In this document: one piece after another, positions 58,401 through 64,000 of the stretch
Position numbering within the stretch: position 1 is the first letter of the stretch
Layout of the letters: the number at the start of each line of letters is the position of its first letter
Assembly: GCF_026625865.1 (NCBI RefSeq)
Contig: NZ_CP113067.1
Coordinates: forward strand, 2,914,001-2,978,000
Length of the DNA stretch: 64,000 nt
Source of the DNA: Microbacterium sp. SL75
GTDB lineage: Bacteria > Actinomycetota > Actinomycetes > Actinomycetales > Microbacteriaceae
Direction of reading: 5' to 3'
Program-made: the position numbers and the translations under genes
Notes under the pieces: generated by a model
Databases searched by the model: none
The model's input: the letters and a program-made list of their open reading frames with translations, nothing else
What the model was told of the DNA's origin: nothing

Positions 58401-58406
58401 CGGCCC

Positions 58407-58976
58407 ATGCCGATCGCCCCCGATGCCGCTGTCCTGGCCCTTCCCGACGCTGCTCCGAGCCTTCACGACACGGCTTTCGTGGCATCCGGTGCGCGCATCA
58501 TCGGGGCCGTGACTCTGCAGGAGGGGGCAAGCGTCTGGTACAACGCCGTCGTGCGCGGCGATAGCGCGTCGATCACGGTCGGGCCCCGCAGCAACCTGCA
58601 GGACAACGTGTCTGTTCATGTCGACCGCGGACGGCCGGTCACCATCGGGGCCGATGTCTCGGTGGGGCACAACGCCGTCGTGCACGGCTGCACCATCGGC
58701 GACGGCTCGCTGATCGGGATGGGCAGTGTCGTGCTGTCGGGGGCCGAGATCGGACCCGGATGCCTCGTCGCCGGGGGAGCGGTGGTGCTGGAGGGTGCCG
58801 TCATCCCCGCGGGCTCACTGGTCGCGGGCGTCCCCGGCAAGGTGCGTCGCGCCCTGACCGACGAGGAACGCGACGGCATCCTGCGCAACGCGCAGACCTA
58901 CCTCGCCCACACCGCTCGCCACGCCTCGGCGACACCGACCCCGGATGCCGACACCCCGGCGATATCGGCCGGCTGA
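58407..58976 (+). CDS. Gamma carbonic anhydrase family protein
   Basis: This 189-aa left-handed beta-helix protein has the hexapeptide repeat pattern and the three zinc histidines of gamma carbonic anhydrases: SVHVDRG, then SVGHNAVVHGC. VWYNAVVRGDSASITVGPRSNLQDN and MGSVVLSGAEIGPGCLVAGG complete the fold, and RRALTDEERDGILRNAQTYL is the C-terminal helix. Activity in such small bacterial members is often low, so carbonic anhydrase function is not certain. Confidence 0.9.
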   Translation: MPIAPDAAVLALPDAAPSLHDTAFVASGARIIGAVTLQEGASVWYNAVVRGDSASITVGPRSNLQDNVSVHVDRGRPVTIGADVSVGHNAVVHGCTIGDGSLIGMGSVVLSGAEIGPGCLVAGGAVVLEGAVIPAGSLVAGVPGKVRRALTDEERDGILRNAQTYLAHTARHASATPTPDADTPAISAG

Positions 58977-59001
58977 GCTGTCTCGCGGCGCGCGGTCGGC
59001 G

Positions 59002-59007
59002 TAGTCT
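59002..59007 (+). promoter_or_regulatory. -10 box TAGTCT, leaderless
   Basis: TAGTCT lies 6 nt before the ATG of the macro-domain-like gene. Confidence 0.5.
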
Positions 59008-59013
59008 CGCCGA

Positions 59014-59373
59014 ATGCAGATCACGTCTCTGGAACCGAACGAGATCTTCGTCTTCGGCTCGAACGCCGCAGGTGCTCACGGGGGCGGAGCAGCGCGTTTC
59101 GCCCTGGACCGCTTCGGCGCGGTGTGGGGGCAGAGTGAGGGTCTCCAAGGCCGGTCGTACGGCATCGACACGATGTCGGGGCTCGGCGTTCTGGAAGAGC
59201 AGGCCCGGCGCTTCTTGGCGTTCGCGCGGACGCATTCCGAACTGCGGTTCCTCGTGACCGAGGTCGGATGCGGGATTGCCGGCTATCGTCCGCAACAGGT
59301 GGCGGCCTTCTTCGCGGGTGCGGGCGCGAACGTCGTGCTGCCGGAATCGTTTCAGGCTGCGCTGAGGGCGTGA
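59014..59373 (+). CDS. Macro-domain-like protein (A1S_2505-type)
   Basis: The 119-aa protein has EIFVFGSNAAGAHGGGAARFALDRFGA and GLQGRSYGIDTMSGLGVLEEQARRF, then RFLVTEVGCGIAGYRPQQVAAFF. The F-G-S-N-x-x-G-x-H-G-x-G-A-A segment and the G-C-G-I-A-G loop look like an ADP-ribose-binding macro domain of the short phage-associated type. It lies just outside the left repeat of the integrative element, on the conserved side. It may remove or read ADP-ribose marks; this is inference. Confidence 0.65.
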   Translation: MQITSLEPNEIFVFGSNAAGAHGGGAARFALDRFGAVWGQSEGLQGRSYGIDTMSGLGVLEEQARRFLAFARTHSELRFLVTEVGCGIAGYRPQQVAAFFAGAGANVVLPESFQAALRA

Positions 59374-59410
59374 GGAGAAAATCGCAACGACGAATCTCTC
59401 GCTCGCGGAA

Positions 59411-59461
59411 TGTGGAGGGGCTGACGAGAATCGAACTCGCATCATCTGTTTGGAAGACAGA
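59411..59461 (-). repeat. attL: 3' half of tRNA-Gly (51 bp)
   Basis: Identical to 62315-62365, it covers the anticodon to the CCA end of tRNA-Gly(TCC). It marks where the element joined the old tRNA end and is not a functional tRNA. Confidence 0.9.
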
Positions 59462-59553
59462 TGAAAGACCCTTTTGGCTGCGACTAGACCCGCGTCGTTT
59501 CAGGAAACAAGGCGGTTCCCTCGCGTCATAAGGCACCCGTCTGAGAGCAAAGA

Positions 59554-59571
59554 TTGTCCACGGATTGTCCA
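59554..59571 (+). repeat. Direct repeats TTGTCCA near attL
   Basis: TTGTCCA occurs at 59554-59560 and 59565-59571, both in the context GATTGTCCA[CT]G. A third TTGTCCA lies at 62239-62245 near attR. They could be arm-type binding sites of the integrase. Confidence 0.4.
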
Positions 59572-59638
59572 TGCCGAGACACGCGGACTATCTATCGGCC
59601 ATGATGGACCAGTACGAGTTTCCGAGATGGGGGCAGCG

Positions 59639-59842
59639 ATGTCGCGGTGGGTGGATCAGATGTTCGACGCGCAGGCAGTTCTTGCGGGCGGAGTCGTCCG
59701 TCGGAGCGTGCACGATGTGCGGCGCTTTGGCGCGATGGACGAGATCGTCGAGAGAGCACAGGAAAATGGGTGGCACGTCGTCGAAACGGGAGACCAGATA
59801 GTGGTGCTCTGTCACGCAGGAGCGCTCGCTATCCACTGCTGA
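59639..59842 (+). CDS. Small element-encoded protein
   Basis: A 67-aa protein MSRWVDQMFDAQAVLAGGVV..., then SVHDVRRFGAMDEIVERAQENGWHVVETGDQIVVLCHAGALAIHC. The C-terminal beta hairpin with Cys and His (VVLCHAGALAIHC) is the most striking part. Similar small proteins occur beside actinobacterial integrative elements, but no function is known. The ATG at 59639 is preferred over 59627. It could be a regulator or an antitoxin for the HEPN protein 40 nt downstream, which is speculation. Confidence 0.6.
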   Translation: MSRWVDQMFDAQAVLAGGVVRRSVHDVRRFGAMDEIVERAQENGWHVVETGDQIVVLCHAGALAIHC

Positions 59843-59870
59843 TAAGTATCAGCGATCAGGTGCGCCTGGC

Positions 59871-59876
59871 TATTAT
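59871..59876 (+). promoter_or_regulatory. -10 box TATTAT for the HEPN gene, leaderless
   Basis: TATTAT, close to consensus, lies 6 nt before the ATG at 59883. The HEPN gene therefore has its own strong -10 and probably no 5' UTR. Confidence 0.6.
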
Positions 59877-59882
59877 GCGTGT

Positions 59883-60695
59883 ATGGCTCTTGAACCCAGT
59901 GAATCTGTAGCAGTCTTCGAGAGCGCCCTGCGTAGCGCCATACGCGAGGTTTTGCCCGTGTGGCAGACAAAGCTCACGGCTGAGGCTGTTGAGAAGCTAA
60001 AAGAGAAGCAGTCAATTGACAACAAAAAGCGAGACGGTGCAGTCGCCAGCTCCGATCTTCTCGACTACACAGAGACGACGCAGCTAACTCGTCTGGTGGA
60101 GTCGAATTGGGATAGCTTCAAGCCCTTGTTTCAGGACCTGGCGCGACTCAAAGTGATGTTCGAGCTGGTGAATGACTATCGAAACCCGGCACAACACAAC
60201 CGCGTGGTCCTGCCGTTCGAGCGCGATCTTCTGTCAGGGGGCGCGCAGCAGGTACAGAATCAGGTAGCTATCTTCAGGGGTACCTCGGGGAGCAAGACTA
60301 GGTACTACCCGCGAATCGAGTCCGCGACGGATCATCTAGGACGTGCTTCGGTTGTGCCCGCGGACATCTATAGCCAACCCGCCCGTCCGCGCCTCGATGT
60401 TGGAGATTGGGTGGAGGTGCAGGCTAGCGCCGTCGCGGCCCGCGGGTTCGACTTGGAATGGTGGATCTTCGCTGGCGACCTGTTGCCTGGGTTCGAGATG
60501 ATGACGCGCCCTAATCGCGGCCCAGATGCCATCGGGTCTGAGGTGGTGCTGCGATATCGAATGACCGCGGCTGATGTGAGCGAGCAGCGGACGGTTCACG
60601 TGCGCATGGCCAGCACGTCGAAGTTCCATCGGACCGATTGGTACGACGGTCACGCCTACTTCCACTTCGCCGTGAACCCACCCGAGGGTGAATAG
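59883..60695 (+). CDS. Swt1-type HEPN domain protein (candidate defence/toxin effector)
   Basis: The 270-aa protein has an N-terminal helical HEPN domain of the Swt1 kind: SDLLDYTETTQLTRLVESNWDSFKPLF (about 57-83) and FELVNDYRNPAQHNR (about 93-107). R100 and H105 form the RX4H active-site motif of HEPN ribonucleases. Residues about 160-268 form a beta-rich C-terminal domain (LDVGDWVEVQASAVA, DLEWWIFAGDLLPG, TVHVRMASTSKFHRTDWYDGHAYFHF) of unknown type. It is the only intact sizeable gene of the element. HEPN proteins commonly cleave RNA in toxin-antitoxin and phage-defence systems; here no partner is obvious apart from the 67-aa protein. Confidence 0.75.
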   Translation: MALEPSESVAVFESALRSAIREVLPVWQTKLTAEAVEKLKEKQSIDNKKRDGAVASSDLLDYTETTQLTRLVESNWDSFKPLFQDLARLKVMFELVNDYRNPAQHNRVVLPFERDLLSGGAQQVQNQVAIFRGTSGSKTRYYPRIESATDHLGRASVVPADIYSQPARPRLDVGDWVEVQASAVAARGFDLEWWIFAGDLLPGFEMMTRPNRGPDAIGSEVVLRYRMTAADVSEQRTVHVRMASTSKFHRTDWYDGHAYFHFAVNPPEGE

Positions 60696-60710
60696 CTAGC
60701 GCCCCGTCAG

Positions 60711-61085
60711 TGGCCTCTCCCGGGTTGAGCTGGCGATTACACGATGCCAGCTCGGCCAGCTCGGCCAGCTCGACAACGAGACCCACATCGCCCCTCAGGC
60801 CCTCGATGGCCTCCTGGGTGATCCTGTCCAGCTCGCCCTGCGTGAAGCTCGCGCCCTTCCGGATGGGCTGCCGGTTGGCCGTGGAGCGGCACGTGTCGCA
60901 CCGGCAGCCGGAGCGGTAGGCCAACGCCACCGGCGTGCCCGGGAGAGGGCACAGGATGGCGGTGCTGGTCTTGCGCTTCTGGACGCGGTCACCCCGGCGG
61001 CGCCGCTGACGCTCGCTCTTCGCGGTGTTTTCGGCTGTGCACGTATCGGCACCGGCATCCGCGGCGCTCGTACGCCGTGCGCCAT
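60711..61085 (-). pseudogene. Frameshifted Cys-rich remnant (GCRCDTC motifs)
   Basis: Reading with two single-base corrections (near 61073 and 61048-61049), the minus strand gives MAHGYERRGCRCDTCTAEN and, further on, PVALAYRSGCRCDTCRSTANR followed by ASFTQGELDRITQEAIEGLRGDVG. The H-G-Y-x-x-G-C-R-C-D-x-C motif occurs in small actinophage and element proteins. Two copies in tandem suggest a duplicated or fused domain. The 3' end is unclear, because the frame stays open into the HEPN gene. A 9-bp tandem repeat (60747-60773) encodes AELAELAEL here. Confidence 0.45.
60747..60773 (-). repeat. Three 9-bp tandem repeats (ccagctcgg)
   Basis: ccagctcgg is repeated three times with one mismatch in the last copy. 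It lies inside the frameshifted remnant. Confidence 0.8.
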
Positions 61086-61113
61086 CCCACGCCCCGCACG
61101 GGGCACTAGACGC

Positions 61114-62006
61114 TCACGCCTTCTTCCGCTTCTTGCCTTGCTGAAGTTTGGACACCAGAGCGTCCACCTTCTCCACGGCGTCGACGTGCATGCGCTCGTT
61201 GGAGTGGAGGTAGCGCCTGGTACTCGTAGCCGAGGCATGTCCGGCGCGCTCCTGAACAACTCGCTCTGAGGCGCCATCCTCGGCCACGAGGCTGAGACCG
61301 ATATGCCGGATGTCGTGCGCGTGGAAGTTCTCCAGCCCGGCAGCGATGACGGCATTGTTCCAGGTGTCTTGCAGTGACCTGCGTGGCATGTGTGCCCCAC
61401 GCTCGCCGGGAACACAGGAGTGGCTCCGAAGCCGCGGGGGAGTGCCTGGAGGGCGTCCGCGCGCCGCTGGAGCAATCTGATGCGCTTGTGCTGGCCAGTT
61501 TTTGTGTCCGCGGTGATTCCCAGCCCCAGGCGCTGCTTCGTTACCGTGAGCATGCCGTCACGCGACACGTCCGACCAGTCCAGCGGGATCAGCTCGCCGA
61601 GTCGAAGATGACCGGCGAACATCACCTCGATCGCTGGTCGGTAGAAGGGGGCCACGTGAGCCAGCACGGCGTCGGAATCCTCGACGCCCCACGTCGGCCG
61701 CTTCTTCGACACGTCCCTGCCGGGGTCTTTCACCTTGCACGGTGACGCGGAGAGCATGCCCCAGTCCACGGCCTGCTCCAGCGCGCCCCTCAGGGCGTAG
61801 TAGCTGTTGCGGCGCTGCACGGGGTGGGTCGAGTGCTTCGCCCACCAGTTGTCCACACTGCGGCGCGTGATGGGGTTGAGCTTCTTGGTCCCGAAGGTGG
61901 GGCTGAGCATCGTCTTGTTGATGCTTACGAGATTTTTGTACGTGCTCGGCTTGACCTCCATCTCCCGGATGGCCAGCCAGTCCGAAAAGAAGCCGTCGAA
62001 GGTCAC
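61114..62006 (-). pseudogene. Tyrosine integrase, frameshifted
   Basis: The core-binding domain (MTFDGFFSDWLAIREMEVKPSTYKNL) and the first catalytic Arg region (FAGHLRLGELIPLDWSDV) are read from GTG 62006. The rest is in another frame: MPRRSLQDTWNNAVIAAG, HAHDIRHIGLSL (H-x-x-R), ERAGHASATSTRRYLH (His and the nucleophile Tyr). A missing G in the run at 61395-61398 (CCCC on the plus strand) explains the break. The reconstructed protein would have every catalytic residue. It may be inactive, or the base may be a sequencing error. Confidence 0.85.
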
Positions 62007-62182
62007 TGACCCTCGCCCTTCTCAACCTCGGTGAGGATGCGTCGAAGCTCTCGTTCCGCCTGAGGCCGAGTAGAGGGTCTGAAGACCTTCGAGCCACGTC
62101 CACCCTCAGGGGTCGACCACTTGAACTGATGTCCGTCCTTGTACGCGGTGACGGTGCCCGTCCCGTGGGAGCGTTTGGCCAT
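62003..62182 (-). CDS. N-terminal arm-binding (AP2-like) fragment of the integrase
   Basis: This 59-aa product starts MAKRSHGTGTVTAYKDGHQFKWST and contains SKVFRPSTRPQAERELRRILTEVEK. It looks like the amino-terminal DNA-binding domain that tyrosine integrases carry before the core-binding domain. Its stop overlaps the next start (GTGA), so it is either a genuinely split two-gene integrase or one more frameshift. ATG 62182 is preferred over GTG/ATG starts further upstream. Confidence 0.7.
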   Translation of the reverse strand: MAKRSHGTGTVTAYKDGHQFKWSTPEGGRGSKVFRPSTRPQAERELRRILTEVEKGEGQ

Positions 62183-62238
62183 GTTCGTGCTTCCGGTCAT
62201 ATCTTCTGTACGCCGGAGAGCGGGTGCTATTCAAGACT

Positions 62239-62245
62239 TTGTCCA
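62239..62245 (+). repeat. TTGTCCA near attR
   Basis: A third copy of the heptamer seen near attL, 70 bp inside the right core repeat. Confidence 0.35.
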
Positions 62246-62314
62246 TGGAGGGTCAGAGGCTCCAGCGGAGGGAGCTGAATTAGCTACGGAAACGGTGCTT
62301 GACCAGGCACTTAC

Positions 62315-62365
62315 TGTGGAGGGGCTGACGAGAATCGAACTCGCATCATCTGTTTGGAAGACAGA
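62315..62365 (-). repeat. attR: matching 51-bp repeat inside tRNA-Gly
   Basis: Identical to 59411-59461, this is the 3' part of the intact tRNA-Gly gene together with its CCA end. Confidence 0.9.
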
Positions 62366-62390
62366 GGCTTTACCACTAAGCTACAGCCCC
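62317..62390 (-). tRNA. tRNA-Gly (TCC)
   Basis: The minus strand reads GGGGCTGTAGCTTAGTGGT, an anticodon loop CTTCCAA (TCC, reading GGA), GAGTTCGATTC in the T arm and CAGCCCC in the acceptor stem. CCA is encoded (62319-62317). Its 3' end is the integration site of the element. Confidence 0.95.
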
Positions 62391-62538
62391 GGATTTTCGC
62401 GGATCTTTCGACGAACCGCGAAGTCGGACGACACCAACTCTACGACACGTCGACGCTCCTCGCGAACGCGCGACGAGACATCCAGGCGTCCTGGATGGCA
62501 AGGGGGCCGGTGAAATCGGCGGAGCCAGGGCTATCGAC

Positions 62539-62544
62539 TAGACT
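62539..62544 (+). promoter_or_regulatory. -10 box TAGACT for tRNA-Pro
   Basis: TAGACT lies 39 nt before tRNA-Pro in a gap with no gene. Confidence 0.4.
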
Positions 62545-62583
62545 TTCAGCGGTCGTTTCGTCGGCGCGTGCCGCGCGCCGCCC

Positions 62584-62657
62584 CGGGGCGTAGCTCAGCT
62601 TGGTAGAGCGCCCGCTTTGGGAGCGGGAGGCCGCAGGTTCAAATCCTGTCGCCCCGA
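62584..62657 (+). tRNA. tRNA-Pro (TGG)
   Basis: CGGGGCGTAGCTCAGCTTGG, anticodon loop with TGG (CGCTTTGGGAGCG), GGTTCAAATCC in the T arm and a CGCCCCG acceptor strand followed by A. No CCA is encoded. Confidence 0.95.
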
Positions 62658-62728
62658 CGTCACGGCCCCACAGACCACAGGCCTAGCCGGCCCCCGCGTG
62701 CGCGCGGGCCACACGAGGAGAACGAACC

Positions 62729-64000
62729 GCATGGTCAACAGCACCGTCGAGAAGCTCAGCCCCACCCGGGTCAAGCTGCACATCACGGTTTCGCCTGACG
62801 AGCTCAAGCCGAGCATCGCCCACGCCTACGAGCACATCGCCCGTGACGTGCAGATCCCCGGCTTCCGCAAGGGCAAGGTCCCCGCGCCGATCATCGACCA
62901 GCGCATGGGCCGTGGTGCCGTCATCGAGCACGCCGTCAACGAGGGTCTCGACGGGTTCTACCGCGAGGCCGTCGAGGCCAACGAGCTGCGAGTGATCGGT
63001 CGTCCCAACGCCGAGATCGTGGAGCTCCCCGAGCTCAAGGACTTCTCCGGCGACCTGATCGTCGACGTCGAGGTCGACGTGCGTCCCGAGTTCGACCTTC
63101 CCGCGTACGACTCGATCACGGTGACGGTCGACGCCGCCGAGGTCGACGAGGCCGGCATCGACGCCGAGCTCGACCGCCTGCGCGCGCGCTTCGGCACGCT
63201 CATCACGGTCGACCGCCCCGCCAAGACGGGTGACTTCGTCGAGCTCGACCTCGTCGCCACGATCGACGGCAACGAGATCGACCGCGCCGAGGGCGTGTCG
63301 TACGAGATCGGCTCCGGCGAGCTGCTCGAGGGCATCGACGAGGCCATCGAGTCGCTCACGGCAGACGAGCAGACCACGTTCCGCTCGAAGCTGGTCGGTG
63401 GCGAGCACGCCGGTGAAGAGGCCGAGGTCTCGGTCACCATCACCGCCGTCAAGGAGCGCGAGCTCCCCGAGGCCGACGACGACTTCGCGCAGATGGCGTC
63501 GGAGTTCGACACCATCGCCGAGCTCCGCGAGTCGCTGAGCGAGCGCGTCTCGCAGCAGTCCGTGTTCACGCAGGGCTCCGCCGCGCGTGACAAGTTCATC
63601 GAGGCGCTCCTCGAGGCCGTCGAGATCCCCGTGCCCCCGCAGCTCATCGAGGACGAGGTGCACCAGCACCTCGAGGGCGAGAACCGCCTCGAAGACGACG
63701 AGCACCGCGCCGAGGTCACCGAGGCGAGCGAGAAGCAGTTCCGCACGCAGATGGTCCTCGACAAGATCGCCGAAGACGCCAACGTCCAGGTGTCGCAGGA
63801 CGAGCTGACGCAGTACCTCATCCAGTCGGCCGCGCAGTACAACATGGCGCCGCAGGACTTCGTCAACGCGCTGCAGCAGGGCAATCAGCTGCCCGCGCTC
63901 GTCGGTGAGGTCGCCCGCAACAAGGCCCTCGCGATCGCGCTCGGCAAGGTTTCGGTCGTCGACACCAACGGCAAGCCCGTCGACCTGACCGGCTTCGTCG
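62729..64000 (+). CDS. tig: Trigger factor, N-terminal and middle part
   Basis: The ribosome-associated peptidyl-prolyl isomerase and chaperone (424 codons visible, cut off by the window edge). [13 protein letters not shown], then [21 protein letters not shown] is the ribosome-binding signature (GFRKGKVP). The FKBP-like PPIase domain ([35 protein letters not shown]) and the C-terminal helical arms ([22 protein letters not shown]) follow. An ACGAGGAGAA ribosome site precedes the ATG. The clpP genes normally follow it. Confidence 0.97.

Follow-up and report, generated by a model that had tools for sequence, protein, structure and literature searches.

A stand-alone Swt1-kind HEPN protein with a predicted Ig-like domain, carried by a tRNA-Gly element relic of Microbacterium: a candidate one-gene abortive-infection effector

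Introduction

Can a HEPN protein carried alone on a small mobile element amount to a complete defence system? The question is raised by Microbacterium sp. SL75, in which a stretch of 64,000 nucleotides (contig NZ_CP113067.1, positions 2,914,001 to 2,978,000; the whole of it is called the window below) holds at 59411-62365 a small element integrated at a tRNA-Gly gene. As an earlier note made from the letters alone had seen, the element has a single intact sizeable gene, an open reading frame (ORF) of 270 amino acids (aa) at 59883-60695 on the plus strand. This gene, HEPN-Ig, encodes an N-terminal HEPN domain followed by a predicted Ig-like domain. We propose, with moderate confidence and by likeness to the Tha protein of S. 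aureus prophages, that its product may be a stand-alone abortive-infection effector in which an Ig-like sensor and a HEPN ribonuclease (RNase) are joined in one protein. This would make HEPN-Ig a variant within the Swt1-HEPN defence candidates; it is not a new class.

Results and discussion

Motif and profile evidence places the 270-aa protein among HEPN proteins of the Swt1 kind. Its HEPN domain (residues 1-137, 59883-60293) carries E13xxxR17 and R100NPAQH105 (codons 60180-60182 for R100 and 60195-60197 for H105), the latter being the RX4H motif singled out by the earlier note, and the two correspond to the HEPN signatures, Ex3R-type and R[ND]xxxH, described in the available part of PMC3710099. 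The R[ND]xxxH motif, an Rx4-6H with a polar residue after the arginine, is present at all 19 loci where we find the gene, window included, as is E-x-x-[LF]-R, with its acidic residue of the Ex3[KR] type, within the first 40 residues. In alignment A2, which holds 12 of the 19 loci, the PADLOC profile PDC-M34B matches every member at E≤1 (best 2.4e-14, window protein 3e-10), PF18731 (HEPN_Swt1) matches 11 at the same threshold (best 4.1e-7), the window protein being the one it misses, and PF18725 matches four. The predicted model of the N-terminal part has a predicted local distance difference test score of 87, and chains of an archaeal HEPN homologue, Csm6', MntA-HepT and SO_3166 are among its best 14 fold matches. 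The assignment made in the earlier note is supported by the invariant motifs and the PDC-M34B profile. By analogy the protein is probably an RNA-cutting enzyme: the HEPN domain would form a dimer in which R100 and H105, with E13 assisting, act as an RNase that needs no metal.

The C-terminal half (residues 138-270, 60294-60692), which the note had described as an uncharacterised β-rich domain, is indeed β-rich and is modelled as a linker followed by an Ig-like β-sandwich, with strands at residues 144-265 and matches to β-sandwich structures. Searches with the whole model gave only common β-sandwich folds among the matches listed, and the Ig_3 profile matches one of the 12 A2 members (1.3e-3). 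HEPN and Ig-like domains are fused in 18 of the 19 copies, the nineteenth (L011, 179 aa read, counted among the loci and kept outside A2) being frameshifted, so the view that the effector is without a clear sensor now looks doubtful, the fused domain being itself the likely sensor. The two halves have not diverged equally. Across four pairs of our own choosing, identity in the HEPN and Ig halves is 78 and 52%, 70 and 62%, 65 and 31%, and, in the closest pair, 90 and 91%; the Ig half is thus the more diverged in three of the four and equal in the closest. Over A2, residues 1-137 have a mean pairwise identity of 40% and residues 171-268 one of 34%. The faster Ig half, the recurrent fusion and the finding that neither a partner nor a flank is widely shared agree with sensing in cis, but do not prove it. 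We found no fusion of this Ig-like domain to other effectors among 396 genomes of the phylum (30 with a match, E≤0.1) and among plasmids, 29 further rows at E 0.003-0.1 being set aside; the search yielded HEPN-Ig genes, one genomic fragment and one broken-up plasmid copy, and nothing else. The fragment, a degenerate Ig half in genome G279 (L032, about 1500-1780), lies beside what appears by eye to be a tRNA gene and is possibly a decayed HEPN-Ig element; the plasmid copy (Hoyosella pAS9A-2, L124, 3341-4264) matches the Ig half in a single member of a row of three small ORFs, which may be the pieces of one HEPN-Ig gene.

The closest functional likeness is to Tha. In the accessible text of PMC11087260 it is a single protein of S. 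aureus prophages with an RNSIMH HEPN motif, a non-specific RNase activated by phage tail proteins. Like HEPN-Ig it is encoded on mobile DNA as a single chain of about 300 aa, an RNxxxH HEPN domain with one further part, a likeness that we draw by description only; unlike HEPN-Ig its domain order is reversed (HEPN at 184-296), and that text gives no confident fold for its N-terminal part. If HEPN-Ig works similarly, the Ig-like domain would hold the HEPN RNase silent until it binds a protein of the invader, probably a virion or tail component, and binding would free unspecific RNA cleavage, so that the infection is aborted and protection against the phage results. An Ig-like domain has been proposed to recognise foreign proteins in BREX PglZ, according to the available part of PMC12839542. 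A bolder version of our proposal, which we hold only tentatively, is that HEPN-Ig may be a complete one-gene immune receptor, an intracellular Ig-like domain recognising a phage protein as an antibody would and directly switching on the HEPN RNase, with the gene passing on its own, as a cassette, among plasmids, phages and tRNA elements. Were the proposal correct, a minimal HEPN effector encoded by one gene, its Ig-like sensor included, would join a group whose members, in this analysis and in the cited papers, occur as two genes (PDC-M34), under RNA control (AbiF) or within large proteins, and intracellular phage sensing by Ig-like domains could be tested on a small example. The large proteins share the HEPN clade as defined by PF18731 but are multi-domain, whereas HEPN-Ig stands alone at 270 aa. 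PF18731 matches 45 of 295 genomes of the genus at 1e-3, and 36 of the 51 matches lie in open frames of 1,119-1,221 or 2,167-2,240 codons, which from their size and the relevant part of PMC3710099 we infer to be the DUF499 ATPase and MTES_1575 types. For the HEPN-Ig fusion itself, our searches of the open-licence PubMed Central literature gave no record in the titles and abstract parts among the matches listed.

The family appears from sequence comparison to be rare and patchily spread, and to move as a one-gene unit. Searches with the single protein found no relative in genomes or viral contigs, whereas alignment-based searches recovered the fusion at 17 other loci and the one frameshifted copy (L017 and L088 are the same locus as L012 and are counted once). 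Seventeen of the 396 genomes matched, from which 11 of genus g49, G358, G360 (HEPN part only) and G279 (C-terminal part only) are not counted as family; the g49 group presumably resembles SAV2148, a label prompted by PF18725 in A2 members and not by a scan of g49 proteins. One of these, G360 (L086, 6405-7577), encodes a 390-aa protein with a Swt1-kind HEPN domain (PDC-M34B, 4.7e-10) and a different C-terminal part, possibly a swapped sensor, although its placement is unsure.

Homologues do occur in mobile and defence contexts, as the note had expected. Eleven of the 19 loci, window included, have a mobile setting: four copies are plasmid-borne (L002-L005); of two viral contigs with HEPN-Ig, L035 also has an SU10-type portal gene, together with a DNA methylase having an Mrr-like part, and L036 an integrase; in L015 a DUF6093 gene follows HEPN-Ig after 28 bp, and a phage tail-tube gene lies beyond; in L010 it sits between a transposase and the type I restriction-modification genes hsdM-S-R, hsdM starting about 0.6 kb downstream; a GmrSD_N gene and an integrase lie near the L012 copy, and a resolvase near that of L008. 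A restriction-type gene lies within 7 kb at five of the 19, namely L003, where HEPN-Ig comes after a HEAT/Mrr protein, L005 (by annotation), L010, L012 and L035. The remaining eight (L006, L007, L009, L011, L013, L014, L084 and L085) have no mobile label, L084 having a PIN/RHH pair. The scan of neighbours covered 30 chosen genes, none of them from L011 or L085, and both counts stand without a background rate.

If HEPN-Ig were half of a type II toxin-antitoxin pair that stabilises the element, its antitoxin would be the small protein encoded just upstream (59627-59842, plus strand; 71 aa, or 67 aa from the second ATG at 59639), which the note had offered as the only candidate partner. The gene ends 40 nt before HEPN-Ig on the same strand, and the protein is real and conserved, with 53-54% identity to copies on Streptomyces and Clavibacter plasmids; a Tropicibacter plasmid copy is 32% identical and one in a viral contig 70%. 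The pairing was nonetheless not found elsewhere. A tblastn search at 1e-3 of the stretches around the other 18 HEPN-Ig loci gave no match to it, and it occurs apart from HEPN-Ig: the Streptomyces and Clavibacter copies lie near replication or transfer genes with no HEPN-Ig nearby, the copy in the viral contig likewise has none nearby, and none of the four other genus genomes (of 294) that encode it has a full-length HEPN-Ig. This distribution makes the small protein an unlikely partner; it has a small family of its own, plasmid- and virus-borne, and is probably a bystander left over from the element backbone. Its relatives carry unlikely enzyme names in two plasmid records. Nor is another antitoxin apparent. 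Among ORFs of at least 45 aa within 5 kb (blastp, 1e-6) no neighbour family is common to more than two of the 19 loci; apart from the gene itself and frames overlapping it there are two matches only, L002 with L005 and L004 with L012. This search could overlook partners that are shorter or very divergent, and several loci end early at contig ends. The description of the HEPN cargo as lacking a conserved partner or antitoxin gene is therefore upheld, and we regard a type II pair as very improbable indeed.

The main mechanistic rival to a sensing protein is an RNA-controlled toxin, in which, as in a type III-like system, a non-coding RNA (ncRNA) encoded upstream would neutralise the HEPN protein. 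The available part of PMC3710099 places Abi2/AbiF and Swt1-like HEPN domains under one heading, and that of PMC12373285 describes AbiF of C. difficile as neutralised by an upstream ncRNA and AbiF/AbiD proteins as growth-inhibiting and found on prophages. In favour of such an RNA, L004 and L015 have about 110 nt upstream of the gene in common, but the closest pair, L002 (Rhodococcus) and L008 (Nocardia), which are 90% identical, share the ORF and only 27 nt upstream of it, with no match over 500 nt downstream, and Rfam finds two tRNA copies, a chance-level match (E 0.76) and nothing else. HEPN-Ig in this respect differs from AbiF, as it gives no clear sign of a neutralising RNA. The start of the gene also bears on this rival. 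TATTAT at 59871-59876 (plus strand), 6 nt before the ATG, is a candidate -10 element of a leaderless start, and TANNNT occurs 5-9 nt before the start codon in four of 18 family genes, window included, whereas 140 control offsets gave 0.49 on average and 2 at most; the test was designed after the upstream sequences had been viewed and covers 18 of the 19 loci (L002 left out). A 5' RNA would have little space in the four genes with leaderless-type starts. A leaderless start is thus plausible, but the near-consensus leaderless promoter proposed by the note is only partly right, as a scan of 59460-60900 found no -35/-10 pair (shuffle mean 0.3). Taking both sides together, we consider RNA control distinctly unlikely.

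A third possibility is that HEPN-Ig is one half of a two-gene system like PDC-M34, listed by PADLOC as a phage-defence candidate in which DUF5343 and HEPN_Swt1 proteins are encoded in an operon, and that the DUF5343 partner has been lost or lies elsewhere in the genome. The HEPN kind is the same, given the PDC-M34B matches throughout A2, and true DUF5343 plus HEPN_Swt1 pairs are found in G618, in G358 and, at the same tRNA-Gly, in G611. HEPN-Ig differs from PDC-M34 in having its HEPN domain N-terminal and fused to an Ig-like domain of its own, and in having no DUF5343 partner that we could find: three tblastn queries for DUF5343 (PDC-M34A) gave no convincing match in the stretches around the 19 loci (best E 0.038, L003), and PF17278 gave none in the genome of the window, in a search made without a positive control. 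A tree of 25 rows (g49 represented by L022 and L024; L021, L023 and L025 left out) likewise places three PDC-M34B HEPN domains on a branch apart from those of HEPN-Ig (94/85, not starred). The HEPN-Ig rows do not form one clade in it, because the long-branch L086 falls among the 19, and the nearest row to the window protein, whose own end branch is long, is L006, a 3.6-kb contig of a Gemmatimonadota metagenome-assembled genome (99/98; bin assignment as given). Neither PDC-M34 nor DUF5343 was found by name in the open-licence PubMed Central literature. We judge that a lost or displaced partner is highly unlikely.

The element itself is a 2.9-kb relic of one inserted by a tyrosine integrase into the 3' end of a tRNA-Gly(TCC) gene. 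A perfect 51-bp direct repeat (100% identity, 59411-59461 and 62315-62365) bounds it, as first noted, the right copy overlapping the intact tRNA gene (62317-62390, minus strand) that is the integration target and the left copy repeating the 3' part of that gene; the latter scores as tRNA-like over 59416-59471 at 28.8 bits, compared with the Rfam threshold of 29. A genus relative, G006 (L078), provides the exact empty site that the note had suggested looking for: there the matches to the left flank (58402-59461) and to the right flank (62315-63612) adjoin and have precisely the 51 bp in common, which puts the insert at 2,904 bp. A direct repeat of which one copy completes a tRNA gene, together with an empty site in a relative, identifies a tRNA-integrated element of the tyrosine-integrase type.

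The description as a minimal integrative element therefore holds for its origin but not for its present state, as the integrase is broken and what is left is a relic, no longer a working element. The phrog_1 match lies in one frame and the catalytic part in another, so that the core-binding and catalytic parts (61114-62006, minus strand) are separated, and a 65-aa ORF (62003-62200, minus strand) holds the N-terminal piece. In G710, a genome of the same species, this tRNA is likewise occupied by the right part of the element, 97% identical across about 2.65 kb and with the identical frame break, although there the N-terminal piece is joined to the main integrase frame. The cargo cannot be read in G710, as its contig starts inside the integrase and leaves only that end of the element legible; the genome is rated 84% complete. 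A 139-aa ORF at 60511-60930 (minus strand), which overlaps the end of HEPN-Ig and has no tblastn match at 1e-3 in the stretches around the HEPN-Ig loci, is probably a fragment or a chance frame.

A broken element invites the further reading that HEPN-Ig is an inert leftover, or a housekeeping or regulatory RNase with no defensive role, and with no phenotype known and eight of the 19 loci without a mobile label this has some force. Yet the gene has stayed open with all its motif residues kept, its spread is patchy, and plasmids and viral contigs carry it. In the closest pair, L002 and L008, moreover, dS is 0.17 and dN 0.046 (dN/dS about 0.27), and purifying selection keeps the protein there. 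A non-defensive or inert HEPN-Ig is on balance rather unlikely, and the abortive-infection effector is the reading that we prefer.

The same tRNA-Gly site has received a second, different system. In G611 (L082, 6075-10743) the same tRNA-Gly(TCC) stands beside tRNA-Pro(TGG) as in the window; its 3' end recurs 4,596 bp away as a 35-bp repeat (94% identical), and the 4.6-kb element so delimited encloses an integrase fragment and the DUF5343/HEPN_Swt1 pair, with strong PDC-M34A and PDC-M34B matches. As this is a separate element, two different Swt1-HEPN systems have entered one tRNA-Gly site in one genus, which makes the site a place to look for further systems. Two other genomes show variation here, no direct repeat of at least 25 nt being found in either stretch. 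G009 (L080, 5147-6304) has another tyrosine integrase beside the same tRNA-Gly, 36% and 45% identical to the two integrase pieces of the window, and G007 (L100, 3176-13200) has some 10 kb of additional DNA between tRNA-Pro(TGG) and the gene that comes next downstream in the window.

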